From assembly GCA_014799325.1 (NCBI GenBank), contig JAAVIE010000140.1:1-36908 (forward strand): a stretch of 36,908 nt of DNA. The letters are read 5' to 3'. A program made the position numbers and the translations under genes. Below are positions 10,649 through 34,246 of this stretch, in pieces. Each line of letters opens with the position of its first letter. The first letter of the stretch is position 1. The DNA comes from Oscillospiraceae bacterium. GTDB lineage: Bacteria; Bacillota; Clostridia; Oscillospirales; Ruminococcaceae. The notes below the pieces were generated by a model that saw only the letters and a list, made by a program, of their open reading frames with translations, made no database searches and was not told the DNA's origin.

Positions 10649-12403
10649 TCAATCTCCAAAAAATTCCGCCTGCTTGCTAAACATTTCGGCATAGTCCCCG
10701 CACCGTTCCATAAGCTGCTCATGAGAGCCGTTTTCGCTTATCTTCCCGTCCTTAAGAACAAGAATTCGGTCACAGAAATAAGTGCTTGACAAATGGTGGG
10801 AGATATATAATGCCGTTTTGTTTTCAGTGATCTCCATAAATTGTCGGTAAAGGTAATTTTCGGATCTCGGATCAAGTGCAGCGGTGGGCTCATCTAAGAC
10901 TATAAAGGACGCATCCTTGTAAATGGCTCGAGCAATGGCAATGCGCTGTCCCTGACCTCCCGAAAGCTCTACGCCGCCGTCATTAAAGCTTTTGTACAAG
11001 AAGGTGTTTTCTTGTGCAGGCAGATCCTTGATAAATGACAATAACTCGGTTTTTGTAAGCTCGTTAAAAGCATTTTCGTTGTGATCGCAAGCGAGAATAA
11101 TATTTTCCTTGACAGTGAATGCAAATAATTTAAAATCCTGAAACACGGCGCTGATATTCATTAAAGGATTTGTTACTGCCTTGCCGTTTATCAGTATTTC
11201 TCCGCAGTCCGGCTTAAAAAAACCGCACAACAGCTTAACAACGGTAGTTTTCCCCTCACCGTTAAGACCCACTAAAGCGATGTGCTCATTTTTGTTTATT
11301 TTAAAGCTGCAGTTGTTTAAAATAAGCTTTTTGGTGTTCGGATATTTAAAGCTCACATTTTTAAATTCGATCGTCTCCACCGTCTCCTTGGGTGAGTACG
11401 GCTCTTGCCTTTCTGAAGCTATTATGGCAGCAAATTCACGGTAACCCGAGAAAAACTTGTTGATATAATATATCTCTGCGCATTGCTCCAAAAATGACTT
11501 ATATGCCTGAGCAAAATTAACGCACACCCCCGTGAAAAAGGTAAAATCGGCAACGGTAATAAGCCCTTTGAAAAACTTAAAGCCCGCAAATAAGTATATA
11601 ATAAACACCTGTATCTGCGAAATAACTGAAATTACGGCATTGCTTGTTCCTATATAACGAAACTGTCTTGTTACTGATTTTAATTCTTCATCGTTAAGAC
11701 GGCGAATCTTTTTCATTATATCGTTTTCCATATGGTAAAGGCGAATGTCCTTGCCATAAGAAAAATTCAGCGTTAAGTCATCGTAATAGCTTATTTTCCG
11801 CTCAACTGGAAGAATATGCTTGTACACATTGTCCTTTATCTGCTTGCTCTTGTTTATGAGCAGAAAATCAACAGCGGTAAAAATCGTGATAGGTATAAGA
11901 AGCACGGCACTAAAAGCAGAAATAACTGTCACAGTGCTGACAAGCAAGACAGCACTATTGATAACGGAGGGCAGTATTTCAGATAAGAGCCTTTCAAGAA
12001 CCCCATAATCAAGGAGGGGTCTTAAAGCCCGTTCCTTAAGATCCAAGGTTTGGGGATTTTCGAGATGAGAATATTTAAGCTCCAGAATGTCTTTCATGAT
12101 CTTGAGCTTAAAATCGTCCTTAAAGCCCTCCTTGCATACTGTCAGTTTCTTTTCCGCAAACACGGACGCAATACCCAAAACAAGATTAAAAACAGCCAAT
12201 GTCACGAGTATCAGTAAAATATGCTTAAGTCTTAAATCGTTTGTCACATAATATACAAGAACCGAAACAGCAAAGGAATTGCCGATGGGAATAACAGTTT
12301 TCAAAACAGCAGTCAGCACAGAAATTACAAAATACCGAGGTGCAGTTTTCGCAATCAAAGCCAAGATCGAGAAAATCTCTTTGACAGTTTTAAAAGCTTT
12401 CAT
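10649..12403 (-). CDS. ABC transporter half-exporter, TMD-NBD fusion (ABC4)
   Basis: 584 aa; Walker A GLNGEGKTT, signature LSGGQGQ, Walker B FIVLDEPTAALD; overlaps the upstream ORF by 4 nt. Confidence 0.92.
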   Translation of the reverse strand: MKAFKTVKEIFSILALIAKTAPRYFVISVLTAVLKTVIPIGNSFAVSVLVYYVTNDLRLKHILLILVTLAVFNLVLGIASVFAEKKLTVCKEGFKDDFKLKIMKDILELKYSHLENPQTLDLKERALRPLLDYGVLERLLSEILPSVINSAVLLVSTVTVISAFSAVLLIPITIFTAVDFLLINKSKQIKDNVYKHILPVERKISYYDDLTLNFSYGKDIRLYHMENDIMKKIRRLNDEELKSVTRQFRYIGTSNAVISVISQIQVFIIYLFAGFKFFKGLITVADFTFFTGVCVNFAQAYKSFLEQCAEIYYINKFFSGYREFAAIIASERQEPYSPKETVETIEFKNVSFKYPNTKKLILNNCSFKINKNEHIALVGLNGEGKTTVVKLLCGFFKPDCGEILINGKAVTNPLMNISAVFQDFKLFAFTVKENIILACDHNENAFNELTKTELLSFIKDLPAQENTFLYKSFNDGGVELSGGQGQRIAIARAIYKDASFIVLDEPTAALDPRSENYLYRQFMEITENKTALYISHHLSSTYFCDRILVLKDGKISENGSHEQLMERCGDYAEMFSKQAEFFGD

Positions 12404-14189
12404 CCTTTAACACCCTCTCTGTTGTAATACTGCGCCTGCAAATTATACATCTCGCTGTATTTGCCGTTCTTTGCCAAAAGTTCGCCATGAGTACCCTGTT
12501 CGACGATCTTTCCCTTTTCCATGAATAAAATATGATCACAAAAGCGTGTGGAGTTCAGACGGTGAGATACAAAAATTGTAGTTTTGTTTTTGGATATTTC
12601 GTGGAATTTAGAATACAATTCGTATTCGGCAATAGAGTCAAGAGCCGCAGTAGGCTCGTCTAAAAGCAAAACATCACCGCCGTGATACAGCGCTCTTGCC
12701 AATGCGATTTTTTGATACTGTCCCCCCGACAGCTCGATCCCCTCATCATCAATAATTTTAGTCAACACCGTTTCGTCGCCCTTTGGCAGACCGCTTAAGA
12801 TCCTGTCCAGCTCCAACACCCGCAAAACCTCGTCATATCTCTCCTGCGAAAAAACATTTCCGCAAATAATATTTTCTCTGATAGTACCCGAAAAAATTTT
12901 GGAATCCTGAAAGACTGTGGCTATCCTGCTTTGCTCTATATTGCGTATATCCTTTTCCCCAAGGTCAATTACGCCCTCATAAGATGAATACAAGCCGGAA
13001 ATAAGTTTTATCAGTGTGGATTTGCCCGAACCGTTTTCTCCCACCACCGCGTAATGCTTTCCTGCCTCAAATCTAAAGGAAAAGCCGTCCAAAATATTCT
13101 CCGTATTGGGATAGTGAAAGCGTATGTCCTGCAGGTGAAGGACAGGCAAATAACAGTCGCTGACCGCCGAATCATACACCTGTATTTCTTGCTCCGCACC
13201 CTCAACATATTCGATATACATATTGAAATTCATCAACCCAAAGGCTAAATCCCCAATTGATGAGGTAAGACCAAATATTACACCCTTTACTGCGGAAATT
13301 GTATTTATATATAGCACAAACTCATCGGCCGGCATATCGCTTGCCACTGCCAAAAAAGCCAAAGCAATATAAGCGGCAGCCTCTCTTAAAAAGTTATCAG
13401 CAGATCGACCAGCGCAGCAAGCGTATCCTTTCTTTGCGTTCGTTTGCATAAATTGAGATACGTTTTTTTATAATACCCGAAAAAGCTTTTTAAAATGCCG
13501 TCGACTCGGTTCAGCCTAATTTCCTTTGCATAAGCATAGTCTGAGGAAATATTGAACACATAGTTTTTATGACGCTCTGCACCGGCAATTTCACTTTGCA
13601 AGTCAAACCGAAACGCCTTTGACTTTGCGGCAAGCAGTATATTTACCGGGATATTTACAAGCACCAATAACGCAACAATCGGATTGAAAAGGCATAAGGT
13701 TACCGTAAAAACCACCAACAGAACTGCATTACTTATAAATATGGGCGAGTTTTTATATATCGAGCCCACCGAAGTCGCTATTGAATTCAGAACAGTGTGT
13801 ATCTTATCGAGAACGGTCGAATCCTCTGTTTTTTCAAAGGGCATTGTCATCGAGATATACTGTATTTTTTCTTTTAGAAAAAATGTGAGCTGCGATAAAG
13901 TGTTTTCCTGAGTAATAGAAAGGAAGTTTTCGGAAAAAGTAACAACGGCATTGATGCCGCAAAAAACCGCAGTTCCCACAAAAAACATCGTTTCATTCTG
14001 TTCTGTTATCGATTTGAGCAGAAATTTAGGGATATAAACGCTTAAAGCCGTAAGTATAAGCCCAGAGAACGCCCGTAAAACATTGAAATAACAACACCGC
14101 ATTTTCGCTCCCAAAGTATTTTGAGAAATTTGCCGTAGCTTTTTATATTTGTTTTGACAGACTTTGTCAAGGAGTACCTCCTTCTGCAT
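12400..14189 (-). pseudogene. ABC transporter half-exporter (ABC3), split by one frameshift
   Basis: TMD half is ORF 13386-14189, NBD half ORF 12400-13449 (GENGSGKST, LSGGQYQ, LLLDEPTAALD). One extra base in the 5-nt homopolymer at 13388-13392 restores ..VDLLITFLREAAAYIALAFLAVA... Confidence 0.85.
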
Positions 14190-14244
14190 AATTTCATTGT
14201 ATAATCATTTTTTATCAACAGTAGAAATTACCTTCATAAAACCG

Positions 14245-16137
14245 TTATTCAAACAGCGCTCCAGCCGTATCCTTATAATACTCCGCCTGCGCACTCCACA
14301 ACTTGCTGTAATTGCCGCCTGCCTTGATCAGCTCCTCATGATTTCCCCGTTCAACTATCTCGCCGTTGTCCATAACCGTTATTTCATCGCAGAAACGGCA
14401 GCTTGAAAGCCTATGGGAAATATACACCGCAGTCCTTGTTCCCACAATATTATTGAAATTAGTGTAAATATCATGCTCCGAAATAGGATCAAGTGCGGCT
14501 GTGGGCTCATCTAAAACGATAAAGGGAGAGCCCTTGTATACAGCTCTTGCAAGACACAGCTTCTGCGCCTCTCCCCCCGAGATCTCTACGCCCTCTTCAT
14601 CAAAATCCTTGTACAGATATGTGTTGATACCATTTGGCATACTGTCAAGACGCTCGGACAGTCCGCTCCTGCGAATACAGTCCTCTACCCGCTCAGGGTC
14701 AAATTCCGTACTTGCCGCCACATTTTCCGCAGCACTGAATGAGAACAGCTTTGAATCCTGAAATACCACCGCAAACAGCGCCATATACTCGTCATAATCG
14801 TATTTGCGGATATCTATGCCGTTTAGCGTTATCTCACCCTTTGTGGGATCGTACAGCCTGCACAGCAGCTTCACAAGGGTGGATTTGCCGCAGCCGTTGC
14901 GTCCCACAAGAGCCATTTTTTCGCCGATCCTCCATTTCATATTTATATCACGCAATACATACTGCTCACTGCCTGGATATTTAAACCACACGTTATGAAA
15001 TTCAAACTCATACTCGTTATCGGAACGCTTTTCCGTGGGGATAGTGCCCTTGTACTTCTCATCGGGTATATCCAAAAAGTCGAAAACTTCCTTGCACTGC
15101 TCGGCTGATATTTTGAGATTCACCATATTGTTGGAAATAGCTGTTATTCCGCTCAAAAGTCTTGAAAACAGCATCATGAATGCAATCACTTCACCGGGGG
15201 AAAGAACGCCGAAAACTGCCCTGAGAATGGCATAACCGTACATAACGCCATAAGAGATAAGACACATTAGATCCATACCATAGCTGTATTTTTTAAAAAA
15301 CTTCAAAAAAGCTTTTTGCCAGATATGGCGGCACTTTTCGGTGCTTTTTTCAATTTCTCTCAATATCAGTTCCTGTTCGGCGTAAAGGCGTATATCCTTA
15401 CCTCTGCGGTAGTCTTTTACCACATGGTTTGCAAAAGCGAAATAAATACTGTTGTTCAGCATTTGATCTTTATCATTCATTGCCCCTTTATAAACGGAAA
15501 AGTTTTTTCTGCTGAAGTAAAGGTTCTTGATGATCTCAGAAAGGGTGACAATAACAACAGCCGCTAAAAATCCCCAAGGAGAGGTTATGAACCCGCCGAA
15601 TCCCGAAAGATCGTTCTTTTGAAATACCGCAGGAACAATAAACACAACGCCGATAGTTATTCTTGCTATTGCGACTATCGAGTCGCCGATCACCTCCGCA
15701 GCTCCCGTTACTCCCCAGCTTCCAAGATAACTATTACACAGATCGCAGCGCCATTGCATATCGGGTTCTTCTAAATGCACATAATCCATATCCATTAGCT
15801 TGTCGTTCAGTATTTTGGTAAGCCCGTTGTCATGCTTGAATTTATGAGTGCTTTCACGTCTGTTTATGAATTTTATCAATATCTGCGCTCCAAAGCAAAC
15901 AGCCGAAATAGCCGCCGTTGATATTAACAGCTCTTTAAGCTCCCTACCCTCGGCTATTCCGTTTGTAATAGAGCTTATCAGCAGTATAAACAGATATTCG
16001 CCCGCAAGTGACAGAACTCCCGCCAAAGTGATCCTGAGCGTGTAACCTCTGTCCGCTTGATCGTTCATTTTTAGCGCTCTCAGTAAAACCCTGTGCCGTT
16101 CCTTGGAGGTCAGCTTTATATCCTTAAGATCACTCAT
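14245..16137 (-). CDS. ABC transporter half-exporter (ABC2)
   Basis: Start MSDLKDIKLTSKERHRV; Walker A GRNGCGKST, signature ISGGEAQ, Walker B IVLDEPTAALD; 8-nt overlap with the ABC1 stop. Confidence 0.92.
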   Translation of the reverse strand: MSDLKDIKLTSKERHRVLLRALKMNDQADRGYTLRITLAGVLSLAGEYLFILLISSITNGIAEGRELKELLISTAAISAVCFGAQILIKFINRRESTHKFKHDNGLTKILNDKLMDMDYVHLEEPDMQWRCDLCNSYLGSWGVTGAAEVIGDSIVAIARITIGVVFIVPAVFQKNDLSGFGGFITSPWGFLAAVVIVTLSEIIKNLYFSRKNFSVYKGAMNDKDQMLNNSIYFAFANHVVKDYRRGKDIRLYAEQELILREIEKSTEKCRHIWQKAFLKFFKKYSYGMDLMCLISYGVMYGYAILRAVFGVLSPGEVIAFMMLFSRLLSGITAISNNMVNLKISAEQCKEVFDFLDIPDEKYKGTIPTEKRSDNEYEFEFHNVWFKYPGSEQYVLRDINMKWRIGEKMALVGRNGCGKSTLVKLLCRLYDPTKGEITLNGIDIRKYDYDEYMALFAVVFQDSKLFSFSAAENVAASTEFDPERVEDCIRRSGLSERLDSMPNGINTYLYKDFDEEGVEISGGEAQKLCLARAVYKGSPFIVLDEPTAALDPISEHDIYTNFNNIVGTRTAVYISHRLSSCRFCDEITVMDNGEIVERGNHEELIKAGGNYSKLWSAQAEYYKDTAGALFE

Positions 16138-18004
16138 ATTCCCCCACCTCCTTGTCATTGTAATAGGAGCTTTGCAGCTCATACAGCTCCGCATATTTGC
16201 CGCCTGCCTGCATAAGCTCGGCATGAGTGCCTGTTTCTATTATCTGTCCCTTTTCAAGCATGATTATCCTGTCACAGAATCGGGTGGAAGCAAGCCGATG
16301 TGAGATAAAAATACTTGCTTTCCCTTTAGAAAATCCCGCATAATTCATATACATCTCCTGCTCCGCAATAGGGTCAAGTGCGGCGGTAGGCTCGTCAAGC
16401 AGCAAAATAGGCGCATCTTTGTACAGTGCTTTTGCTAAAGCCATTTTTTGCTTCTGCCCTCCCGAAAGCTCGATAGCGTCATCAAAAATACTGCGGACAA
16501 GGCGAGTTTGTTCCTTTTGGGGAAGGCTGTCCACCTTCTCATACAGCCCCGCTTGCTTCATACAGCGCACTAACTTTTCTTTATCGGTACTCTCATAGCT
16601 CTCCCCAGAAATATTTTCCGCAATGCTCACAGGCAGCTCGTTTATATCCTGAAATACCGCAGAAAACAGGGTAAAATATTCATCACGGTTGTAAGCGTTG
16701 ACAGGTTTTCCGTTCAGCAAAATTTCTCCCTCGGTGGGGTCATAAAGTCCGCACATCAGCTTTATAAGCGTAGTTTTGCCCGCACCGTTGAGACCAACCA
16801 GCGCAAGCCGCTCCCCCTTGTGCAATGTAAAAGAAAGGTTTTTGATAGTTGGTTCTTCTGCTTTGTAGTATGTGTAGCTGACATTTTTGAATTCTATCTC
16901 AAAGTCATTTTTCGGCAAAGGCTCGCCCTCACCCCTGTTAGTTTTGTCTGGCAGATCGCAGTATTCTCTTGCATAAGAGATATTGTCGCTTTGCCATTTA
17001 AAGCCGTTATAGCTGTCCGCAAGGCTGTACACAGTGGTTGACAGCAGAGAAATTGCGTTGAAGTACAGCACACAATCGCCCGCTCCGATATTTCCCGTAA
17101 ACACCTTGTACACAACATATCCATAAGAAAGAAAATAGCCTGTCCACAAAACCGCCTGTTGAAGAATATCATGTCTGAAAGACCATTCGTCCTGCTGCTC
17201 ATACCAATCAATACGGCTTGCCATGGAACGTTTAAGCGCTTGCTCCAAAAATTTAGGCAGATTGAATATCCTCATATCTTTGGCATAAGAGAGATTTCCC
17301 GCAGATGAGAAAATATAAGATATTTGTCTGTCATAGTTCTGCCAGTTGTCCGCCATATTCCAGATCCACATCATTTTGCGGCGGTTCAGCTTGTAGCTTA
17401 AAAAGCTCGGAACAGCCACCAGTAGTATCATAACAGGGCTTAAAAAAGACAAAATTCCGCCTAAAGCAAAAAAGGCAAATACATTTCCCAAAAGATTTTT
17501 TATGTTGTATAATGTATCATAGGCAATGCTGTAAGAAGCGTTATTTGCCTTGTTCATGGCGTCGTTTACCGTGGTTTTTTCGTTGTTTTCATAATCGGTA
17601 TAAACGTTCTTTTTTACAAGGATAGTCTGCATAAAACGGCGCAGACTAAGGCTTCCGACCCATGTGTTATACATCAAAGCGGTGGTACTGAGCCACGAAA
17701 AAAGCCGCCCGCATACAAGCAAAACTATAACTATTGCCGCAAGCATCATCCTGTTTTCCGTGTCCAACACAAGCTCCACAACATATTTATCCGTAAACAT
17801 GGCAATAATTTCAACGCCCTTTTCAAACAAAAAAGCCGTAAATATCATAATAAGCATCTTTTTATCGGCCTTCCACCCCTGAGCGATGATATATTTGATA
17901 TTTTCCCGCAAACCGTATTTTCGTGCGGCACTTTCCGCATTGTATTTCGCCCATGCGGCTTTGTTTTTCTCTTTGGTGTATTTTGCTATTTTGACCCTTT
18001 TCAC
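16130..18004 (-). CDS. ABC transporter half-exporter (ABC1)
   Basis: Likely GTG start (VKRVKIAKYTKEKNK) after AACGTTGAGAGGTGAGA; Walker A GLNGAGKTT, signature LSGGQKQ, Walker B LLLDEPTAALD. Confidence 0.92.
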   Translation of the reverse strand: MKRVKIAKYTKEKNKAAWAKYNAESAARKYGLRENIKYIIAQGWKADKKMLIMIFTAFLFEKGVEIIAMFTDKYVVELVLDTENRMMLAAIVIVLLVCGRLFSWLSTTALMYNTWVGSLSLRRFMQTILVKKNVYTDYENNEKTTVNDAMNKANNASYSIAYDTLYNIKNLLGNVFAFFALGGILSFLSPVMILLVAVPSFLSYKLNRRKMMWIWNMADNWQNYDRQISYIFSSAGNLSYAKDMRIFNLPKFLEQALKRSMASRIDWYEQQDEWSFRHDILQQAVLWTGYFLSYGYVVYKVFTGNIGAGDCVLYFNAISLLSTTVYSLADSYNGFKWQSDNISYAREYCDLPDKTNRGEGEPLPKNDFEIEFKNVSYTYYKAEEPTIKNLSFTLHKGERLALVGLNGAGKTTLIKLMCGLYDPTEGEILLNGKPVNAYNRDEYFTLFSAVFQDINELPVSIAENISGESYESTDKEKLVRCMKQAGLYEKVDSLPQKEQTRLVRSIFDDAIELSGGQKQKMALAKALYKDAPILLLDEPTAALDPIAEQEMYMNYAGFSKGKASIFISHRLASTRFCDRIIMLEKGQIIETGTHAELMQAGGKYAELYELQSSYYNDKEVGEYE

Positions 18005-18034
18005 ACTCTCACCTCTCAACGTTATTATAACACA

Positions 18035-18063
18035 GTATAACACAAAAAAGACCGTTCGTGCAA
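18035..18063 (-). promoter_or_regulatory. Candidate promoter for the ABC exporter operon
   Basis: Minus strand TTGCAC (18058-18063), 17-nt spacer, TTATAC (18035-18040); the -35 overlaps an inverted repeat. Confidence 0.5.
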
Positions 18064-18081
18064 AAATCGGAACGAACGGTC
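18044..18081 (-). terminator. Hairpin plus T6: terminator, attenuator or operator between the TCS and ABC1
   Basis: Perfect 10-bp repeat GACCGTTCGT (18050-18059) / ACGAACGGTC (18072-18081), 12-nt loop; minus strand continues TTTTTT (18044-18049). Confidence 0.65.
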
Positions 18082-18106: not shown

Positions 18107-18190
18107 CTCTCAAGAATATAGTGCCGGTTTATAGTTCTCTCAGGTAAGTGGTACGAGTATAGACCCGCTCTCAGGGAAAGTTGGTGGTAA
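18107..18190. repeat. Three degenerate direct repeats at 30-31-bp spacing
   Basis: CTCTCA at 18107, 18137 and 18168, the last two as CTCTCAGGkAAr; the first two units share a downstream TATAG segment (TTTATAGTT / AGTATAGAC). Confidence 0.45.
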
Positions 18191-18206
18191 TTTGCTGATT
18201 TAAAAA

Positions 18207-18344
18207 GAATTTCAGAACCGCAAACTTTTATTAAAATTTCTTGAAAAACTGGGAAATTTTAATAAAAGTTTGCTATCCGACTGAGCTTAGAGTTTTGCTT
18301 GAAAAGCTGGGCAAAACTCTAAGCTCAGTCGATTTCTGAAATTC
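18207..18344. repeat. Three-way-junction/double-hairpin inverted-repeat element
   Basis: Outer stem GAATTTCAGAA (18207-18217) / TTCTGAAATTC (18334-18344). Hairpin 1: 21 bp perfect, 18220-18240 / 18253-18273, loop TTGAAAAACTGG. Hairpin 2: 21 bp perfect, 18278-18298 / 18311-18331, loop TTGAAAAGCTGG. Confidence 0.9.
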
Positions 18345-18395
18345 GTGCTATCATGATAGTTGTGCGATCAGTTGTCCGCTTGTAGAAATGTTGTG

Positions 18396-19124
18396 CTAAT
18401 TTTTTAGCGGAACAAGCAGCTCGGTAGCAAAAATGCCTTCTTCATACTGTCTGTTTACGTAGCCGCCGTATTTTTTTGCAATACGGTCAATACGAAACAG
18501 TCCAAATCCGTGCAAGCCCTCCTTCGTAGTCCGAAAAGCGCCTTTTTCAAGCTTAACAGGCGGCGAAGAATTCTGCACCGACAAATAAAGCTGCCCCTTG
18601 AATTTATCAATATACACCCGCATAAAGCGTTCCTCTTGGGGCACTTTTTCACAGGCTTCCATAGCGTTGTCAATAAGATTTCCCAATACCGAACACAACT
18701 CTACATCTGTCATAGCAACACCCTGCGGAATACGCGCCTTGATGTTGAGCTTTACGCCCTTTTGCTCCGCCACCGACAGCTTGCTGCCAAGAACAGCGTC
18801 CGCCATAACGTTGCCTGTTTGTATAGATGTGTCCGCCTGTGTAAGGTCGTCCGCCAGCTCGTCAAGATACTTTTCCAGCTCGCCTTGATCTCCCTCAAGG
18901 CGGTTTTTCATATTCTGGATATGATTGCGGTAGTCGTGCCGCCACGCCTGCATTTGCCGATACATATTCCGTATCTCCTCGGTCTGCTTGCCGATAAGCT
19001 CGCTCTGAAACTCGGAAATGCGCTTGTCCACAAGATGAAAAAAGAGCTTTCTCAAAAGGAAAAAAGCCGCCGTCAGAAATGCAATGCAGAAAATAACGAT
19101 AATGATTATGACAGCCGTTTTCAA
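18396..19124 (-). CDS. GHKL-type sensor histidine kinase with a single N-terminal TM segment
   Basis: 242 aa; WRHDYRNHIQNM H-box, NLIDNAMEAC N-box, GLHGFGLFRI G-box; overlaps the regulator gene. Confidence 0.88.
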   Translation of the reverse strand: MKTAVIIIIVIFCIAFLTAAFFLLRKLFFHLVDKRISEFQSELIGKQTEEIRNMYRQMQAWRHDYRNHIQNMKNRLEGDQGELEKYLDELADDLTQADTSIQTGNVMADAVLGSKLSVAEQKGVKLNIKARIPQGVAMTDVELCSVLGNLIDNAMEACEKVPQEERFMRVYIDKFKGQLYLSVQNSSPPVKLEKGAFRTTKEGLHGFGLFRIDRIAKKYGGYVNRQYEEGIFATELLVPLKN

Positions 19125-19819
19125 TCCCGATCCTCCTTGTAATAGTCAATAAACGCCCTGTTTACGCTGTCGTACAGCCTCCGTGAGATCGGTATTTTTT
19201 CTCCGCTGTCCATGGTGATCTCAGTCTTGGAAACGCTGCTGATATATCCGAGATTCACAACATAGGAGCGGTGGCAGGAAACAAAGCCTTCCCCCAGTTT
19301 TTCAAAAACCGCGCTGAGACCTATAGAGCAGGTTATCTTATTACCGCTGTTCAGCGCTGCCTGGGTTTTCTTTCCAAAGGCTTCAAGATAAATGATATTT
19401 TTGGAGGAAGTGATCACTGAGCCCTCACAGCAGGGCAAAATTATCCTGTTTTTGGGCTTGCGGCCGTGGGAATACCTGTCAAGAGTCATAAACAGCTTAT
19501 CCTTATCCACAGGCTTCAGCAGATAATGCAGGGCTTCCACTTCATAGCCGTCGCCCATATACTCCGAAAAGCCCGTAATGAACACAATAGGCAGCATATC
19601 GCCTTTGGCGCGGAGAGCTTTGGCAAGCTCCATGCCGTTCATTTTGCCCATTTCTATATCAAGCAGCAGAAGATCGCATTGGTCGTCGGGATAGCTGAAC
19701 AGGAACTGTTCCGCCGAGCTGTATTCTTTTATTACGGTCTGACTGTTCCATTCGGTCAGCATTTTCCGCAAAGCCTTGACCTGATTGCTGTCGTCGTCGC
19801 ATATTGCTATTGTTATCAC
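19121..19819 (-). CDS. LytTR-family response regulator
   Basis: MITIAICDDDSNQVKAL receiver with LLLLDIEMGKMNGMEL; C-terminal LytTR FVSCHRSYVVNLGYI..PISRRLYDSVNRAF. Confidence 0.92.
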   Translation of the reverse strand: MITIAICDDDSNQVKALRKMLTEWNSQTVIKEYSSAEQFLFSYPDDQCDLLLLDIEMGKMNGMELAKALRAKGDMLPIVFITGFSEYMGDGYEVEALHYLLKPVDKDKLFMTLDRYSHGRKPKNRIILPCCEGSVITSSKNIIYLEAFGKKTQAALNSGNKITCSIGLSAVFEKLGEGFVSCHRSYVVNLGYISSVSKTEITMDSGEKIPISRRLYDSVNRAFIDYYKEDRD

Positions 19820-25409: not shown

Positions 25410-26780
25410 GTGAACGAAGAAGAAAAAAAGTCAAAAACCGAAAAGATAGCCGCCGAAATTCTCCAGATGTCGAAAAATAAACTTCTGGTAAATATGCGGT
25501 TTATGGATATGTCACTCAATAGGATAAATCCCTCTCCCCGCCCCGATATTACTGCCTGTACCGCCTGTGACGGCGAGTCTTATGTATATGACCCCGTACA
25601 TATTCTGACTGCATATAAGGTTGAGGAAAACGTGCCTATACGCAATTTCCTCCACTCTGTTTTCCACTGCGTTTTCAAGCATTTTTTCATAAATACTCTG
25701 ATAGATCAGGAGCTGTGGGATCTTGCCTGCGATATTGCGGTGGAAAGCGCTATAAATGACCTTAATCTGCCTTATTTGAATATCCTGCGCGCAGGTGAAC
25801 AGATGCAGTTTTTTGAAAATATCAAGAAGAAAATAAACATCGTTTCCGCCGAAAAAATATACAACTATCTACTTGAAAAGCATCTGCCGCCCTCTACCGT
25901 GGAAAAGCTGTCGGTGCTGTTTAAGGGGGACGAGCATTTATTGTGGTATATGACCGAGGACGAAAAGGCAGGGCTTGGACTTGGGCTTCAAGGCGCGTCT
26001 CCCACCTCAATTTCCTCTTTGGAAAGGATTAGTATGCTGGCTGAAAGCTGGGGCGGTATCGCACTGCGTATGCAGACGGAGCTGGAGGCTTTCGGGAAGA
26101 GACAGGGCACGGAAGCGGGACTTTTGACGCAAAATCTTAAGGAGATCAACCGTGAGAGATACAACTACACGGAATTCCTCAAAAAATTTGCTGTCAGAGG
26201 GGAGATAATGAAGATCAACGTTGACGAGTTCGACTATAACTATTACACCTACGGCTTGAAGCTGTATGAAAATATGCCCCTTATCGAGCCGCTGGAGTAC
26301 AAGGACGTTAAGAGAATAAGGGATTTTGTTATCGCCATAGATACCTCGGGGTCGACCTCGGGAGAGCTGGTGCAGACATTTGTGCAGAAAACGTATAATG
26401 TGCTGAAAAGCACCGAAAGCTTCTTCACAAAAATAAATCTGCATATAATCCAGTGCGACGCGGCTATCCAGGAAGATGTGAAGATCACCACCCAGGAGGA
26501 ATTTGACCGCTATCTCAACAATATGGAGCTTCACGGAATGGGCGGTACGGATTTTCGACCTGTGTTCAGCTATGTTAATTCTTTGGTGGATATTGGCGAG
26601 TTTGAGAATTTAAAGGGATTGATCTATTTTACAGACGGTTTCGGCAGCTTTCCTGCCAAAAAACCGCCTTATGACGCCGCCTTTGTTTTCATTGAGGACG
26701 AAATGAAAGGGGCGGGCTTCAACAACTATGACGTTCCCTCTTGGGCGATAAAAATGGTACTCAGAAAGGACGAAATATGA
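25410..26780 (+). CDS. vWA-like domain protein of DUF2201/metallopeptidase-like type
   Basis: 456 aa; MIDAS-like AIDTSGSTSGEL, GMGGTDFRPVF, IYFTDGFGSFP; N-terminal FLHSVFHCVFKHFF. GTG start with GGAG upstream. Confidence 0.85.
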   Translation: MNEEEKKSKTEKIAAEILQMSKNKLLVNMRFMDMSLNRINPSPRPDITACTACDGESYVYDPVHILTAYKVEENVPIRNFLHSVFHCVFKHFFINTLIDQELWDLACDIAVESAINDLNLPYLNILRAGEQMQFFENIKKKINIVSAEKIYNYLLEKHLPPSTVEKLSVLFKGDEHLLWYMTEDEKAGLGLGLQGASPTSISSLERISMLAESWGGIALRMQTELEAFGKRQGTEAGLLTQNLKEINRERYNYTEFLKKFAVRGEIMKINVDEFDYNYYTYGLKLYENMPLIEPLEYKDVKRIRDFVIAIDTSGSTSGELVQTFVQKTYNVLKSTESFFTKINLHIIQCDAAIQEDVKITTQEEFDRYLNNMELHGMGGTDFRPVFSYVNSLVDIGEFENLKGLIYFTDGFGSFPAKKPPYDAAFVFIEDEMKGAGFNNYDVPSWAIKMVLRKDEI

Positions 26781-28324
26781 TAGAGCTGTATAAGGAAGAT
26801 CCGCTTTATTTAGCGGTCATGCACAACGATATTCCGAAGATAAAAAGTCTGAAAAACAAGGGATTTACATTATCGGAGTTTGTGGTAAAGCTGCTTACCT
26901 GTCCCGTAGGGGGTGCGGCAAAGGTGGGTGAATTCACCCTGCCTTGGTATGGACATATAAAGGCTGTCAAGGGTTTGAGCGGTCAGAAGCTGATAGACGT
27001 TCTGCATAGGCTCACCGAGGAGCTTGGGGAAAAGATGTATTGTTCAAGCGCTTATGATTGGGAATACAGCAAGCGTTTTTATGAGCCTGAGTTGTTTGCC
27101 TGCGTGCTGGACTGCTTTGACAACAGAAAGATCCAAAAGAAAAAGGTCTGGACTTTCATAATAGAAAACGACCGTGTGGAGCTTATGGCTATTGCTGCGG
27201 AACACGGCTGGCTGAAAATGCCGAAAAAGCGTGACGAGCTTATAGAACAAGCTTCAAGGTTGGGTAAGACCGAGTGTCTTGCATGGCTGTTGGATTTTAA
27301 GGAGAAAACTGCCGATCTTGCCAAGGAAAAGGAAAAGGCGGAAAAAAAGCTGATGCGTGAGCTTAACGCCGATCCCAATTCGGTATCCGAGATCAAAAAG
27401 CGATTTGGTTTTAATAAGAAAGAGGACGGAACCCTTGCGGTTACAAGCTGTAAAAGAGGTCTGGGGAGCAGCTTGGAAGTTACCGTACCCGAGAAAGTGG
27501 GAAAGGATACTGTGACGGAGATCGGAACTTATGCCTTTTCTACATTCGCAGGAAGGCTTACCAAGGAATGTAACGAATTCCGTCATAATATCGAAAAAGT
27601 CAGGCTCCCCGATACCATAAAGGCAATACGGTCAAACGCCTTTTCTCACTGCGTTTCCATAAAGGAGATCAATATTCCCGACGGAGTTGAGGTCATTGAG
27701 GAGAGGGCTTTCAGCATGTGCAGGAGCGTAAAAGAGATGACTGTTCCCGATTCTGTGAAAAGCGTGGGGAAATCCGCATTTGCATATTGCCGAGCACTTG
27801 AAAGGATCAAGCTTCCAAAGAGTCTTGAGCAGATCCCCGGCGGTACCTTTGCGGACTGCATAATGCTTGAAAGGATCCAGTTGCCCGAAAAGCTTAAGGA
27901 GATAGGAAGATATGCTTTTAACAGATGCCTTGCCCTTAAAGAGATAGATATTCCCAAGGGCGTGGAGATATTGCGCACATACAGCTATAACCACTGTTAT
28001 GCGTTGGAAAAAGCGGTTTTTCATGAGGGACTCAAAAAGCTGGAAAAGAATGTTTTTGAGTGCTGCAAGAGCTTGAAAGAAGTTGTTCTTCCCGAGGGTT
28101 TGGAGGAGATAGGTCATTTGACCTTTGCGGGCTGTCTATCCCTTGAAAAAATATATCTGCCCCGATCACTCAGGAAAATGCAGAATTATACTGTGAATAC
28201 CGTAACGCCACAGAGCGTTTTTGACAACTGCCCTAAGCTGACTGCTATGGTGTATAAGGGGTCCTATTCGGAAAAGTATTGTAAGAGAAATAATATTCCT
28301 TATGAAATAAGAGAAGAAAATTAA
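26777..28324 (+). CDS. LRR paralogue 1: short ankyrin-like N-terminus plus BspA-type LRRs (about 9)
   Basis: MIELYKEDPLYLAVMHNDIPKIKSLKNKGFTL; GWLKMPKKRDELIEQASRLGKTECLAWLLDFK; LRR units of type IxIPDGVEVIEERAFSMCRSVKE. 4-nt ATGA overlap with the vWA gene. Confidence 0.88.
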   Translation: MIELYKEDPLYLAVMHNDIPKIKSLKNKGFTLSEFVVKLLTCPVGGAAKVGEFTLPWYGHIKAVKGLSGQKLIDVLHRLTEELGEKMYCSSAYDWEYSKRFYEPELFACVLDCFDNRKIQKKKVWTFIIENDRVELMAIAAEHGWLKMPKKRDELIEQASRLGKTECLAWLLDFKEKTADLAKEKEKAEKKLMRELNADPNSVSEIKKRFGFNKKEDGTLAVTSCKRGLGSSLEVTVPEKVGKDTVTEIGTYAFSTFAGRLTKECNEFRHNIEKVRLPDTIKAIRSNAFSHCVSIKEINIPDGVEVIEERAFSMCRSVKEMTVPDSVKSVGKSAFAYCRALERIKLPKSLEQIPGGTFADCIMLERIQLPEKLKEIGRYAFNRCLALKEIDIPKGVEILRTYSYNHCYALEKAVFHEGLKKLEKNVFECCKSLKEVVLPEGLEEIGHLTFAGCLSLEKIYLPRSLRKMQNYTVNTVTPQSVFDNCPKLTAMVYKGSYSEKYCKRNNIPYEIREEN

Positions 28325-28372
28325 CTCGGATAAGAAAGTTTATTTTTAGAGGGAATTTTGGTAGAAGAAATT

Positions 28373-30484
28373 ATGACCGAGAGTGAAAAGAAAGTAATTG
28401 AGCTTGAGAGATCGGTGCTTTGTGATACGCCCGAGGAGCTGGACAAGGTCTGCAAGGAGCTTGGGGATATGTATGGGAGAAGTCGGGCGCTGGGGCTGGC
28501 TTGTCATTTCAGAGGGCTTGAGTGGGTGAAGGTGCTGGTGGGTAACGGCGTTGGGTTTAAGCAGGAGAGAATGCAATTGTTTCCGAGCCTGTGCTATATG
28601 AGCCGCCGCGGAGATCACTATTTTTCTATAAGCGATAATTTTATGTTCTGCCTTTTAGATCTGAAAATTATGTTAAGGAGATTGCCGCCTCAGCTTATGG
28701 AAATTGGCGAAAACGAACCGAGCGACCGTATGTTTGCATTTGAAGAGGTAATTAACGCTATTTCCGAAGAAGAACGGATCAAGTGCGTGAGGTATTTTAT
28801 AGAACTGAACGATAAGGAGATTTGCGATTTACGGGAGCTTTTGTACTATGCCATAATATACTGCGATTTTAAGGTGACGGAGCTTTTGAGGGAAAAAGGA
28901 GTAACTATCCCGCAAAGGACCTGTGAAATGATGCTGATAGGAGATCATACAGGTCAAACCCAGTTTTTTATTAACACTGCATATATGAGGGCGAAGGAGT
29001 TTGTTTGGACTATCGGTGAATTGTTAAAGGATATGGGGGAAAACAGTGTTATCGGCGGATATATCAGGGACATTGAGAGTTTAAAAGACAAATTGATCCG
29101 TGAACATGAACCCGAAGCATTTGAGTGCTTTCTTACTCATTTTGATATAAAAAGGATCAGTCAGAAGAAGATCATGCAGGAAATTATTTTGAGCGGAAGC
29201 CCTGCGCTTTTGGCGGTCTGCGAAAAGCTCGGCTGGCTGAAAATGCCCAAAAAGCGCGATGAGATGATACAGTTTGCGGCGGATAACGACATGACCGAGT
29301 GTGCTGCTTGGCTTCTGGACTTCAAAAAGCGTACCTCCGACCCTGCGGCGGAACGGGAGAAGGCGGAGAAAAAGCTGCAAAGAGAGCTTAATGCAGATCC
29401 CTTCTCCCTCACAGAAATGAAAAAGATGTGGGGTTTTGAAAAACGCGGGGACGGCGGTATCGTTATAACGCGGTATAAGGGGAAGCGAGACGAGATTCTT
29501 GTACCCGAGAAAATAGGCAAGGATATTGTAAAGAAAATTGGCAAAGAAGCATTTTCCCCTGCCGCGTCCCGACTTACAGAAGAACAGAAGGAGCGGCGGA
29601 AAAATATCACAAGGATCGGTTTGCCCAAAACGTTGGAGGTTATAGGAGAAAGGGCTTTTTATGAGTGCAGAGAGCTTGTTTCGGTACATATTTCAGAGGG
29701 AACGGAAGAGATCGGAGAGAATGCCTTTTCTTCCTGTCGAAACCTTTCCAAGATAAATATCCCTGTGTCGGTAAAGGAGATCGGGAAAACCGCATTTTAC
29801 GGCTGTACCGGTCTTAAGTCAATAGATATTCCAATGGGGATAACAGAGATCAGCGAGGGCTGTTTTGCAGGCTGCACAAGCTTGGAAAGGCTTGAAATTC
29901 CCTCAAACATCAAAAAAATAGGAGATTGGGCGTTCAGAAACTGTATTTTCCTTGAAGAAGCTTTTTTATCCGACGGGGTAGAGGAGATCGGCAATTTTGC
30001 TTTTTACCGCTGTATAAGGCTTTTGAAAATAAACATTCCCCTTTCGGTAAAGAAAATAGGAGGGAACGCATTTTCATGCTGTGAAAGTCTGGTCTCCATA
30101 AATCTGCCTGACGGGATAACAGAAATCAGCAACAGCACTTTTTCGGAGTGCGGCTCGCTGAAAACGGTCACGATCCCGCCCACTGTCAGGAAAATAGGCA
30201 GAGAGGCGTTTGCACGGTGCAGTTCCCTTGAAGAAATAAAAATACCCGAAGGTGTGAAAGATATTGGTCAGGAGGCATTTATAAAATGCGGCAGTCTGAG
30301 ATCCGTAACGCTGCCGAGATCGGTAAGATCAATGTGGTGTGTCGGCTTGAAGGGGTATAAGCCGAAAACGGTCTTTGACGGCTGTAATGATCTTACTGTT
30401 AGAGTGCCCGCCAGAAGCTGCGCAGAAGAATACTGCAAGGAAAACGATATCAAGTATACGATCATGGAGGAAGAAAATGACTGA
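28373..30484 (+). CDS. LRR paralogue 2: ankyrin-like N-terminus plus BspA-type LRRs (about 11)
   Basis: Start MTESEKKVIELERSV chosen by alignment with paralogues; ALGLACHFRGLEWVKVLVGNGV; 23-aa LRR units. Confidence 0.88.
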   Translation: MTESEKKVIELERSVLCDTPEELDKVCKELGDMYGRSRALGLACHFRGLEWVKVLVGNGVGFKQERMQLFPSLCYMSRRGDHYFSISDNFMFCLLDLKIMLRRLPPQLMEIGENEPSDRMFAFEEVINAISEEERIKCVRYFIELNDKEICDLRELLYYAIIYCDFKVTELLREKGVTIPQRTCEMMLIGDHTGQTQFFINTAYMRAKEFVWTIGELLKDMGENSVIGGYIRDIESLKDKLIREHEPEAFECFLTHFDIKRISQKKIMQEIILSGSPALLAVCEKLGWLKMPKKRDEMIQFAADNDMTECAAWLLDFKKRTSDPAAEREKAEKKLQRELNADPFSLTEMKKMWGFEKRGDGGIVITRYKGKRDEILVPEKIGKDIVKKIGKEAFSPAASRLTEEQKERRKNITRIGLPKTLEVIGERAFYECRELVSVHISEGTEEIGENAFSSCRNLSKINIPVSVKEIGKTAFYGCTGLKSIDIPMGITEISEGCFAGCTSLERLEIPSNIKKIGDWAFRNCIFLEEAFLSDGVEEIGNFAFYRCIRLLKINIPLSVKKIGGNAFSCCESLVSINLPDGITEISNSTFSECGSLKTVTIPPTVRKIGREAFARCSSLEEIKIPEGVKDIGQEAFIKCGSLRSVTLPRSVRSMWCVGLKGYKPKTVFDGCNDLTVRVPARSCAEEYCKENDIKYTIMEEEND

Positions 30485-32300
30485 GACCGAGAAAATTTTA
30501 GAGCTTGAAAGAGCTGTGTTTTTTGACACTCCCGAAGAGCTTGACAGAACTTGCAAGCGGCTTGGGAGCTTTGACAAGAGAAGCCGCGCCCTGGGACTTG
30601 CCTGCCATTTCAGAGGGCTTGAATGGGTAAAGGTGCTGGTACAAAACGGTGTGGTGTTCAAGCATATCGATATGCGGCAGTTTCAGAACAGATGCTATAC
30701 AACGCCTAAAGGGCAGCTTTATTATGCTTTATATGACGACTTTATGTTTTCTCTTGTAGATTCAAGGCTGCAGATAAGGAAAATGTCCTATCTTCAGACT
30801 AAAGATAACGATTTGGTTCCCGGAGACTGTATACGCGCCTTTGATAATGAATTTGACGCTGTTTCCCATGAAGAAAGAATGGAATGTGTAAGGTATTTTA
30901 CAGAGCTTAATGACAGCAATATCTGCGATCTGCAAAGGCTTTTGTACCTTGCCATAATATACTGCGATTATGAGGTCACCGAGCTGTTGAGGGAAAAAGG
31001 GATCACTATCTCAAAAAGCGCCCGTGAAATGCTGACAGGGGAAAATGAGCAGGATCATTATTTCTTCTGGTATTATTGCCTTAACATAAGATCTATGACA
31101 GCAAAGGAATTTTTATGGTCGGTGGAGGAGCTGTCAAAGGATATGGAGGAAAAGGAAAAGATAACTGTCACTGCGTGGCTTATGGATAATATAAAACCCA
31201 GATTCTTTTTTGAGCCCGAGGTTTTTGAGTGCGTTCTTTCCCGTTTTAATCCGAGAAAATTCAATCAGAAGCAAACCATGCAGCAAATTATTATGAAAGA
31301 GCGCCCCGAGCTTTTGGCGATCTGTGAAAAGCACGGCTGGCTGAAAATGCCAAAAAAGCGTGATGAGATGATACAGTTTGCGGCGGATAACGACAAGACA
31401 GAGTGTACCGCGTGGCTGTTGGAATTCAAAAACCGCACAGCAGATCTGAAAGCGGAGCAGGAAAAGGCGGATAAAAGGCTTATGCAGCAGCTTAACGCCG
31501 ATCCCAATTCCGTTACCGAACTTAAAAAGACTTGGGGCTTTGAAAAGTTAGAGGGCGGCGGTATCGTTATAACGCGGTACAAGGGTAAGCACACCGAGGT
31601 GGAAGTGCCCGAGAAGATCGGTAAGGAAGTCGTGAGGGAGATAGGCGAGCGGGCTTTTTCGCCTAACGCGTTAAGGCTCACAGAGGAACAGAAGGGGTTC
31701 CGAAGGCAGATAACAAAGGTTATTTTGCCCCGGACTGTGGAAGCTGTAAGAGAGGGGGCTTTTTACGACTGCGAGAGACTTTGCTCCATAAATCTGCCCG
31801 AGAGTGTTAAGAGTATAGGTGCAAGCGCATTTTGCGGCTGTAAGTCTCTTCCCGAAATAGATATCCCTTTGTCGGTAGAGGAGATAGGATTAAGCGCATT
31901 TTTGTGCTGTGAGAGCCTTGCTTCCGTTGTGCTGCCCGAGGGGCTAACCGTAATAAAGGGCGGCTGTTTTTCGGGGTGCAAGCTGTTGAAAAACGTGGCA
32001 ATTCCCTCTTCTGTTAAGAAAATAGAAAAGTGGGCTTTTCTGCGGTGCTTTACTCTTGAAGAGATCGTTATTCCCGAGGGGGTGGAGGAGATCTGTGAAA
32101 AGGTCTTTGCTGACTGCCCTGAGCTTAAGTCCGTTGCTTTTCCCGAATCCTTGAAGTCGGTCAAGAATTATAAGCGCAAGGGGTGGGAGCTTGAAACTGT
32201 TTTTGCGGGCAGCGAAAAGGTGACTGTTACGGTCAGCGAAAAAAGCTATGCCGAAAGGTATTGTAAGAGAAACAATATAAATTATATAACTAAAGAATAA
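30477..32300 (+). CDS. LRR paralogue 3: ankyrin-like N-terminus plus BspA-type LRRs (about 7)
   Basis: MTETEKILELERAVFFDTPEELDRTCKRLG; 8-nt overlap with the upstream gene (the ORF track's 30375 start is upstream). Confidence 0.88.
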   Translation: MTETEKILELERAVFFDTPEELDRTCKRLGSFDKRSRALGLACHFRGLEWVKVLVQNGVVFKHIDMRQFQNRCYTTPKGQLYYALYDDFMFSLVDSRLQIRKMSYLQTKDNDLVPGDCIRAFDNEFDAVSHEERMECVRYFTELNDSNICDLQRLLYLAIIYCDYEVTELLREKGITISKSAREMLTGENEQDHYFFWYYCLNIRSMTAKEFLWSVEELSKDMEEKEKITVTAWLMDNIKPRFFFEPEVFECVLSRFNPRKFNQKQTMQQIIMKERPELLAICEKHGWLKMPKKRDEMIQFAADNDKTECTAWLLEFKNRTADLKAEQEKADKRLMQQLNADPNSVTELKKTWGFEKLEGGGIVITRYKGKHTEVEVPEKIGKEVVREIGERAFSPNALRLTEEQKGFRRQITKVILPRTVEAVREGAFYDCERLCSINLPESVKSIGASAFCGCKSLPEIDIPLSVEEIGLSAFLCCESLASVVLPEGLTVIKGGCFSGCKLLKNVAIPSSVKKIEKWAFLRCFTLEEIVIPEGVEEICEKVFADCPELKSVAFPESLKSVKNYKRKGWELETVFAGSEKVTVTVSEKSYAERYCKRNNINYITKE

Positions 32301-32329
32301 TAAAAAATCAAAAAATTAAGGTAGAAAAT

Positions 32330-34246
32330 ATGACTGTTGAGGAAAAGACAAGAGTTATTGAAAAAGCGGTGCTTTTCAGCACTCCGGAGACATTGGAGAA
32401 GCTCTTTGACGATATAGGAGCTGTGGATAATATGAACCGGGCATTGGGGCTTGCCTGCCATTTCCGAGGAGTGGAATGGGTGAAAGTGCTGGTTAAAAAT
32501 GGGGCAGTGTTTAAAGAGGGGAAAAAAGGTGTGTATAATGGCATACACTTTGATAATCCAAACGGTGTGTCCTATTACGATTATCAGAAGGATTTTTCTT
32601 TTTCTCTCCTTGACCCTAAATTTTGGATAAAGGTAATGACCCAAAAGTGGAAGGGAGAGGAAGGCATAGCCAGGGACAGTATATCAGCCTTTGGAAAAGT
32701 AATTGACAGCATTTCCGAAGAGGAAAGACTGGAATGCGTCAGGTATTTTATCGAGCTTAACGACAGCAGCGTCTGCAATCTGCAGGATCTTTTGTATTAT
32801 GCAATAGTACACTGTGACTATAAAGTCGTAGAGCTTTTGAGAAAAAAAGGGCTTACAATACCTCAGGTCGCTGTGGATATACTGATAAACGGATATAAAG
32901 CAAATATGGAGGGCGATTTTTGGTTTTACACCTTTAATCTGTCCGATATGACCGTGCAGGAGCTAATGTGGATCATAAGCGAGCTGTCAAAGGATCTGGA
33001 GAGCGGCAAGCTTATTACAAGCAATTATTATTTTATATATAGCATAATATATGAATTTTCGGAGGAGCCATGGGTCTTTGACTATATCCTCTCACATTTT
33101 GACAATAAAAAGATCAATAAAAAGAAAGCTATGGAGCTGATCATTTCAATGGAAAAGCCCGGGCTTTTGGTGGTTTGCGAAAAACACGGCTGGCTGAAAA
33201 TGCCGAGGAAGCGTGACGAGATGATAAAGTTCGCTTCTGACAACAACAAGACCGAGTGTACCGCATGGCTTTTGGACTTTAAAAAACGCACCGCCGATCT
33301 TAAGGCGGAGCAAGAAAAGGCGGAGAAAAAGCTGATGAGGGAGCTTAATGCCGATCCCAATTCCATTACGGAATTAAAAAAGCTGTGGGCTTATGAGAAA
33401 CGCAGTGAAGGCGGTATTGTCCTGACACGGTACAAGGGAAAACACACCAAGGTTATTGTTCCTGAAAAAATAGGCAAGGACATTGTAAGGGAGATAGGCG
33501 AGTATGCTTTTTCTCCCGATGCTAAACGGCTTACGAAGGAGCAGGCAGGATTGCGGCTTAATATAACCAAGATCGTTTTGCCCGAAACTGTTGAGGTTAT
33601 AGGAAAATATGCTTTTTGCGAATGTGAAAAGCTTTCCTCCGTAAATATTCCAAAGGCTGTCAGAGTCCTTGATGACAATGTGTTTTTCCGTTGTTTTAAC
33701 CTGATCTCCGTAAATATTCCAAATGGGGTCGGCAGTATAGGAGAAAACACATTTTACGCCTGTAAAAAGCTTTCGGAAATAAATATTCCGTCATCTGTAA
33801 CAGAAATAGGAACAAATGCTTTTAGCGGCTGTGTAAAGCTTACCTCCGCAGTTCTGTCTGAGGGGATAACAAAAATCAGAAACGGCTGTTTTTCAAGCTG
33901 TGAAAATCTGAAAAAGGTCGCAATTCCGCCCACTGTCAAAGAAATAGGAACTTTGGCATTTTGGGGGTGTTCGGAGCTTGAAGAAATAACCATACCCGAA
34001 GGTGTTTGTGAGATAGGCGAAAAGGTATTTGCCGACTGTCCAAAACTCAGATCGGTCATTCTCCCAAAATCGGTAAAGCTTATCAAAAACTCTGTGCTGA
34101 AAGGCGAGGGGACAAAGAATATTTTTTCGGAATGGTTCGTTTCGGAGTGCAAGGACTTGACTGTGACCGTGCCTGCCGATAGCTATGCAGAAGAATACTG
34201 CAAAAGCAATAACATAAATTACATCATTATGGAGGAAGAAAAATGA
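32330..34246 (+). CDS. LRR paralogue 4: ankyrin-like N-terminus plus BspA-type LRRs (about 8)
   Basis: MTVEEKTRVIEKAVLFSTPETLEKLFDDIG; same architecture. Confidence 0.88.
   Translation: MTVEEKTRVIEKAVLFSTPETLEKLFDDIGAVDNMNRALGLACHFRGVEWVKVLVKNGAVFKEGKKGVYNGIHFDNPNGVSYYDYQKDFSFSLLDPKFWIKVMTQKWKGEEGIARDSISAFGKVIDSISEEERLECVRYFIELNDSSVCNLQDLLYYAIVHCDYKVVELLRKKGLTIPQVAVDILINGYKANMEGDFWFYTFNLSDMTVQELMWIISELSKDLESGKLITSNYYFIYSIIYEFSEEPWVFDYILSHFDNKKINKKKAMELIISMEKPGLLVVCEKHGWLKMPRKRDEMIKFASDNNKTECTAWLLDFKKRTADLKAEQEKAEKKLMRELNADPNSITELKKLWAYEKRSEGGIVLTRYKGKHTKVIVPEKIGKDIVREIGEYAFSPDAKRLTKEQAGLRLNITKIVLPETVEVIGKYAFCECEKLSSVNIPKAVRVLDDNVFFRCFNLISVNIPNGVGSIGENTFYACKKLSEINIPSSVTEIGTNAFSGCVKLTSAVLSEGITKIRNGCFSSCENLKKVAIPPTVKEIGTLAFWGCSELEEITIPEGVCEIGEKVFADCPKLRSVILPKSVKLIKNSVLKGEGTKNIFSEWFVSECKDLTVTVPADSYAEEYCKSNNINYIIMEEEK

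Follow-up and report, generated by a model that had tools for sequence, protein, structure and literature searches.

A double-hairpin element of an Oscillospiraceae genome as a probable copy of a BOX/MITE-like small mobile repeat

Small hairpin-forming repeats and the place of the present element

REP/BIME sequences, which go with REP-associated tyrosine transposases, occur as many palindromic intergenic copies with palindromes of 20–40 nt. BOX elements of Streptococcus pneumoniae are small, intergenic, modular repeats that are present in many copies, undergo nested insertion, lie close to or within transcribed regions, are predicted to fold when transcribed, and define no regulon; their modules comprise end modules and a variable middle (PMC3049150). 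Correia/NEMIS and ERIC sequences are mobile repeats that are co-transcribed in operons and form RNA hairpins, and processing by RNase III is known for the Correia elements (PMC2649163; PMC3049150; PMC10969869). Furthermore, double-hairpin or repetitive hairpin-forming elements, including tandem and triple hairpins, have been described in fungal and sponge mitochondria, where they are intergenic and patchily distributed among close relatives; an RNA intermediate has been suggested for the double-hairpin elements of Allomyces, and in those of sponges it is the stems that are conserved and the loops that vary (PMC2800124).

The element reported here was found in a stretch of 36,908 nucleotides, the whole of which is referred to as the window. 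In architecture, it appears most like the pneumococcal BOX elements, being small, modular, dispersed, nested, present in many copies, and predicted to fold when transcribed, a likeness of architecture only. By contrast with BOX, the middle is made up of long, perfectly paired hairpins that have a loop in common, 80% of the copies between co-directional genes lie in the sense orientation, and the clade is Oscillospiraceae. The mitochondrial elements share with it tandem hairpins, triple forms, nested insertion, intergenic location, and patchy occurrence, whereas here the loops of one core type (type A, described below) are conserved, the long stems vary in register rather than being conserved, and the repeat resides in a bacterial chromosome with a constant outer stem and unit arrays. 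As mobile repeats co-transcribed in operons, Correia/NEMIS and ERIC resemble it, the RNA hairpins of the present repeat being predicted only; we know of no sequence relation between it and either. REP/BIME sequences are similar in their many palindromic intergenic copies and in a Y1 transposase gene in the genome, although the Y1 gene here looks IS200-like and was not seen adjoining the repeats (one flank per gene fragment was read), and the cores are three-way junctions of ~92–195 bp instead of short palindromes. A literature search yielded nothing relevant on such repeats in Ruminococcus. The repeat is rated as belonging to the known kind of small interspersed mobile repeats and is assigned neither to the BOX nor to the mitochondrial double-hairpin group.

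Structure of the element and its locus

The preliminary description of this DNA had reported two 21-bp stems with near-identical 12-nt loops, an 11-bp outer stem, unpaired junction bases of 2, 4, and 2 nt, and five T residues after the outer stem on the minus strand, all of which are present and exact (Table 1): both stems are 100% complementary, the loops are one base apart, and TTTTT directly follows the outer stem on the minus strand. The three-way junction is predicted on both strands, with z-scores of -12.6 and -11.0 against shuffled sequences, and none of 200 shuffles was as good. The further claim that the same loop is carried by stems of different sequence was confirmed, yet the stem tips beside the loop are often similar between the two hairpins (...TTTGC-loop-GCAAA...), and because of this sequence likeness the hairpins are probably old duplicates and not independent inventions.

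Table 1. Features of the double-hairpin element and its neighbourhood (window coordinates)
Feature	Position	Strand	Remarks
ABC exporter ORF, downstream	16130–18043	minus	True start probably near 18000, past TATAAT at 18024–18029
Terminator-like hairpin	18049–18080	minus	10-bp GACCGTTCGT/ACGAACGGTC, then T6; 12-nt loop; z -3.6; follows the element in the minus-strand direction
Three flanking units of ~30 nt (CTCTCAGG...)	18107–18206	minus	End in TTTAAAAA beside the core; minus strand reads TTTTTAAAT
Outer stem, arm 1 (GAATTTCAGAA on plus strand)	18207–18217	minus	With arm 2, ends common to all core types; kept across copies
Hairpin 1	18220–18273	minus	21-bp stem 18220–18240/18253–18273; loop TTGAAAAACTGG at 18241–18252
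Junction TATC	18274–18277	minus	Invariant among aligned type-A copies
Hairpin 2	18278–18331	minus	21-bp stem 18278–18298/18311–18331; loop TTGAAAAGCTGG at 18299–18310
Outer stem, arm 2 (TTCTGAAATTC on plus strand)	18334–18344	minus	Right end TTTGAAATTCGTGCTATCA recurs many times in the genome
Right-hand units (GTGCTATCATGATAGTTGTGCG... and CTTGTAGAAATGTTGTG...)	18345–18395	minus	Reach the kinase stop codon
GHKL sensor kinase	18396–19124	minus	Pfam PF14501; stop codon at 18396–18398
LytTR response regulator	19121–19819	minus	Pfam PF04397/PF00072

On the minus strand, the LytTR regulator is followed by the GHKL kinase, the right-hand units, the core, the left-hand units, the terminator-like hairpin, an extended -10-like sequence (TGTTATAAT), and the ABC exporter gene. 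The LytTR–GHKL transcript probably ends at the terminator-like hairpin. Since the element lies between the kinase stop codon and this hairpin, its most likely location is the 3′ UTR of the two-component operon. Across the whole window, Rfam gave no match at the gathering threshold; a known RNA family at the element was rejected, since a relaxed search returned only sub-threshold matches to unrelated models (miRNAs, snoRNAs). Elsewhere in the window, four ABC-transporter ORFs occupy the minus strand at 10649–18043, downstream of the LytTR–GHKL pair, and a tandem array of five related ORFs (~530–710 aa, 60–76% DNA identity) lies at 26741–36228; the one ORF of this array that was scanned encodes a BspA-type leucine-rich-repeat protein (PF13306).

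A dispersed modular family

Copies were counted in the assembly that contains the window, which has 164 contigs and a total of 2.64 Mb. BLAST of the 138-bp sequence gave ~40 further copies, mostly full length and with 74–92% identity, and a covariance model built from 22 copies gave ~55 type-A copies. The right end TTTGAAATTCGTGCTATCA had 180 matches at up to three mismatches (control, 0) and the left end had 156 (control, 2); 155 right ends were found at up to one mismatch. The family comprises at least 155 copies in this genome, at a density of ~1 end per 15 kb, with many ends near contig ends. Among relatives, the covariance search called for at the outset gave one full type-A copy and two partial ones in the congener G016; nothing convincing was found in the other relatives, and the weak matches in G011 (E 3e-4) and G031 (E 3e-3) may be chance hairpins.

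Copies retain the outer stem together with the bases that immediately flank it, and the cores, hairpin-rich and ~92–195 bp in size, are of two types. Type-A cores carry two hairpins of 18–23 bp with the TTGAAAARCTGG loop; type-B cores carry hairpins unrelated to those of type A and likewise form a three-way junction with the same ends and outer stem. The cores are flanked by arrays of ~29–31-nt units, some of 47 nt; 255 of 271 unit matches fall no farther than 400 bp from the end of a core, and unit and core share a strand in 246 of 256 cases. Approximately ten tandem 29-nt units (GATTTGGGTTCTCTCAGGGAAGTTGTGCT) were also read on the minus strand of one stretch (L030, 1–300), where the nearest complete core found is far away. 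Some copies have extra hairpins, either within hairpin loops or beside hairpins; several type-A copies (L044, L045, L047, L056) have an extra hairpin AGGTACTTCTCGGCAAGCCGAGAAGTACACGCAGCAAGCTGC between hairpins 1 and 2.

Two further repeats were noticed. A second hairpin repeat of ~100 bp, with the pattern TACTAATCCC-TTTTAAAACTGT-GGGATTAGT...GGGATTGGTA (L303, L305, L306, L308, L309, L312, L313, L317), had 34 pattern matches in G016, 19 in G001, and 5 in the window's own genome (G000), and it was absent from the 34 other genomes searched. In this repeat, the loop is similar to that of type A, TNA target duplications of 3 bp, as in MITEs, were seen by eye at approximately six copies, and single-hairpin versions of it occur within the hairpin-1 loop of type-A copies L032 and L046. 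A third repeat, with ends like AACATGTTCCAATAG and CTATTGGAACAAGTT, was seen in or beside type-A hairpins in G016 (L109, L126) and in the CANEHP01 MAG (L123).

Comparison with congeners indicates that copies are insertions into operons that are element-free in those relatives. In the congeners read, little separates spoVAC from spoVAD and no element is present; the gap here holds a unit and a core running directly into the spoVAD ribosome-binding site. The flhB–flhA gap measures 518 nt here, with two type-B cores, versus 18–62 nt in the majority of congeners; in a few others the gap is longer and is occupied by other sequence. The rimM locus was set aside as an empty-site comparison, as the upstream genes are not syntenic in relatives. 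Occurrence is patchy, few Oscillospiraceae having the repeat: one of 398 sampled genomes of the bacterial family had the right end at up to one mismatch, and type B occurs in two further Oscillospiraceae/Clostridia MAGs, where right ends numbered ~28 and ~12 when up to three mismatches were allowed. Copy number, operon insertions, and patchy distribution together support the mobile hairpin element that the preliminary description had listed among the possible roles.

Two traits of MITEs are found in the family: it is short, multi-copy, non-coding, and dispersed mostly between genes, and its sites are occupied or empty among relatives (spoVAC–spoVAD and flhB–flhA). The outer stem GAATTTCAAAA/TTTTGAAATTC forms an 11-bp inverted repeat and is a candidate for terminal repeats, but the homology runs on beyond it into the unit arrays. 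The preliminary description had staked its reading on the element not being one of many copies with target duplications; the many copies exist, but neither a target duplication nor an exact end could be defined for types A and B, no duplication being recognisable at spoVA or flhBA, where relatives are too diverged for junction alignment. No autonomous parent with the same ends was recognised among the stretches read. Searches of phage and plasmid collections found no similar DNA, and an origin from either was rejected on that ground. The sole candidate enzyme seen is an IS200-type TnpA, encoded in the genome as fragments at two contig ends. The pieces, at the ends of contigs C40 (L285) and C103 (L286), overlap by the residues VEII, and the gene is probably part of a multi-copy insertion sequence that collapsed in assembly. 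No element-like ends were seen beside it in the ~150–270 bases read per fragment, the other flank being missing from the assembly, and TnpA as the mobilising enzyme is a lead only.

Orientation, perfect stems, and alternative explanations

The orientation of the copies was compared with that of neighbouring genes for 97 copies classified by a simple ORF caller. Between co-directional genes, the strand corresponding to the window's minus strand is sense in 41 copies and antisense in 10 (41/51; p = 1.5e-5), and the split is 18:3 in 20 larger stretches together with the window. Convergent and divergent sites have no bias relative to the regional coding strand (16:14), and in all six co-directional cases in which local and regional strands are discordant, the element follows the local genes; replication strand as the cause of the bias is therefore unsupported. 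Since orientation follows local transcription, the minus-strand RNA is probably the relevant molecule. Fourteen copies abut a ribosome-binding site: on the minus strand, TTTTTAAAT or a near variant leads straight into it, with the start codon ~17–25 nt from the core. The genes that follow, as named from sequence reading, are functionally unrelated (a MATE-type pump, spoVAD, rpe, rtcB, rimM, flhA), so that the copies define no regulon. Isolated wobble pairs lend weak support to the same strand: 34 distinct G.U pairs occur on the minus-strand fold versus 15 on the plus-strand fold (p = 0.009), although a stricter count (14 versus 6, p = 0.12) is not significant and one closing pair in hairpin 2 opposes the trend. 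The structured RNA that had also been proposed as a role for the element is thus upheld in part, by its orientation with local transcription and by this modest wobble asymmetry.

Pairwise differences in hairpin 1 affect both arms in 283 cases and one arm in 17, and all but one of its 23 distinct stems have arms of symmetric length (22 of 23); the pattern in hairpin 2 is looser, with 547 both-arm and 171 one-arm differences. Among type-B loops, five triplets occur with their own reverse complement (GGA/TCC, GAA/TTC, GCA/TGC, AAC/GTT, GTA/TAC), and two 78-bp copies (L140, L154) that lack both stems look like loop-to-loop deletions. Homogenisation of arms and inversion of the spacer are reported footprints of polymerase template switching (PMC8604942; PMC8794818). 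The mirrored stem changes and inverted loops of the present family fit this signature, and the perfect stems alone are therefore no proof of selection on structure. The preliminary argument that different stems with the same loop imply selection rather than duplication was too strong, as the copies are duplicates whose mirrored changes and inverted loops fit template switching. Unlike the type-B loops, the type-A loops of hairpins 1 and 2 keep both sequence and orientation, which hints that the type-A loop matters.

With these observations, the element is best explained as a single copy of an interspersed repeat that is small, mobile, and non-autonomous, has a core closed by the outer stem and set within same-strand unit arrays, and has spread between genes in one Oscillospiraceae lineage; we assign this reading a probability of approximately 0.7. 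One alternative, which we consider unlikely, is a single-stranded-DNA transposon: a Y1 (IS200/IS605-type) transposase would recognise the hairpins as DNA, the repeat being a palindrome-associated non-autonomous derivative. Such an origin would supply the mobility step missing from the mobile-repeat explanation, with the structure acting as DNA and not RNA, and it accords with the IS200-like TnpA gene, the hairpin-rich copies devoid of clear target duplications, and the recurrence of one loop motif across different stems; nevertheless, the IS200 flanks, as inspected by eye, do not resemble the element, the copies are oriented with the local genes and not with the regional coding strand, and the type-B loops are unconserved. 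A doubtful extension of the mobile-repeat explanation is a class of hairpin elements coupled to transcription, in which insertion or survival would need a transcribed sense strand, the shared 12-nt loop TTNNAAAACTGK, also found in the second hairpin repeat of sister species, would be the recognition feature while the stems are free, and template switching rather than selection would keep the stems perfect.

A structural RNA under purifying selection on base pairing, in which the mirrored changes are ordinary compensatory evolution, is improbable to a higher degree: compensatory changes are many, type-A loops have one orientation in both hairpins, orientation is linked to transcription, and wobble pairs are somewhat asymmetric, but the very few one-arm intermediates, symmetric arm lengths, and inverted loops point to one-step template switching, L140 and L154 appear to have lost their stems by loop-to-loop deletion, and the repeat is absent from most congeners. 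Finally, an attenuator or riboswitch-like regulator of the exporters, whose minus-strand fold would terminate or pause transcription at the outer stem and T5, accords with the minus strand being co-directional with the exporter genes and with the adjoining T residues, and an attenuator was among the roles listed in the preliminary description. It is hardly credible for this copy, which follows the kinase stop and precedes both a distinct terminator-like hairpin and, ahead of the exporter gene, a -10-like box, scores as no terminator-like site (in a scan for loops of 3–8 nt) with its AU-rich outer stem and T5, and has no Rfam family at the gathering threshold, while other copies precede unrelated genes or lie within operons in which transcription must still reach the downstream genes.

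Our best call is therefore a new BOX/MITE-like small mobile repeat, with a putative mobilising enzyme and a putative effect on expression. In the mobile-repeat explanation, the co-transcribed minus-strand RNA would fold into a Y-shaped double-stranded structure in a 3′ UTR or 5′ leader. There, one orientation would be tolerated far more readily than the other, and the structure may affect how the mRNA is processed or how stable it is; in the window, its place would be the 3′ UTR of the LytTR–GHKL operon. Long perfect helices are typical RNase III substrates. The stems would stay perfect largely because template switching during replication rewrites one arm from the other, whether or not selection contributes, and spread would be driven in trans by a putative transposase.

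In practical terms, the repeats coincide with many contig ends of the draft assembly. The source of compensatory changes in hairpins is a long-standing confusion in covariation analysis, and the >150 copies, whose stems are perfect yet diverged, together with the copies that have inverted loops, offer a natural test bed for template switching versus RNA selection. Furthermore, the link between orientation and gene direction provides a way to ask how operons tolerate structured repeats.
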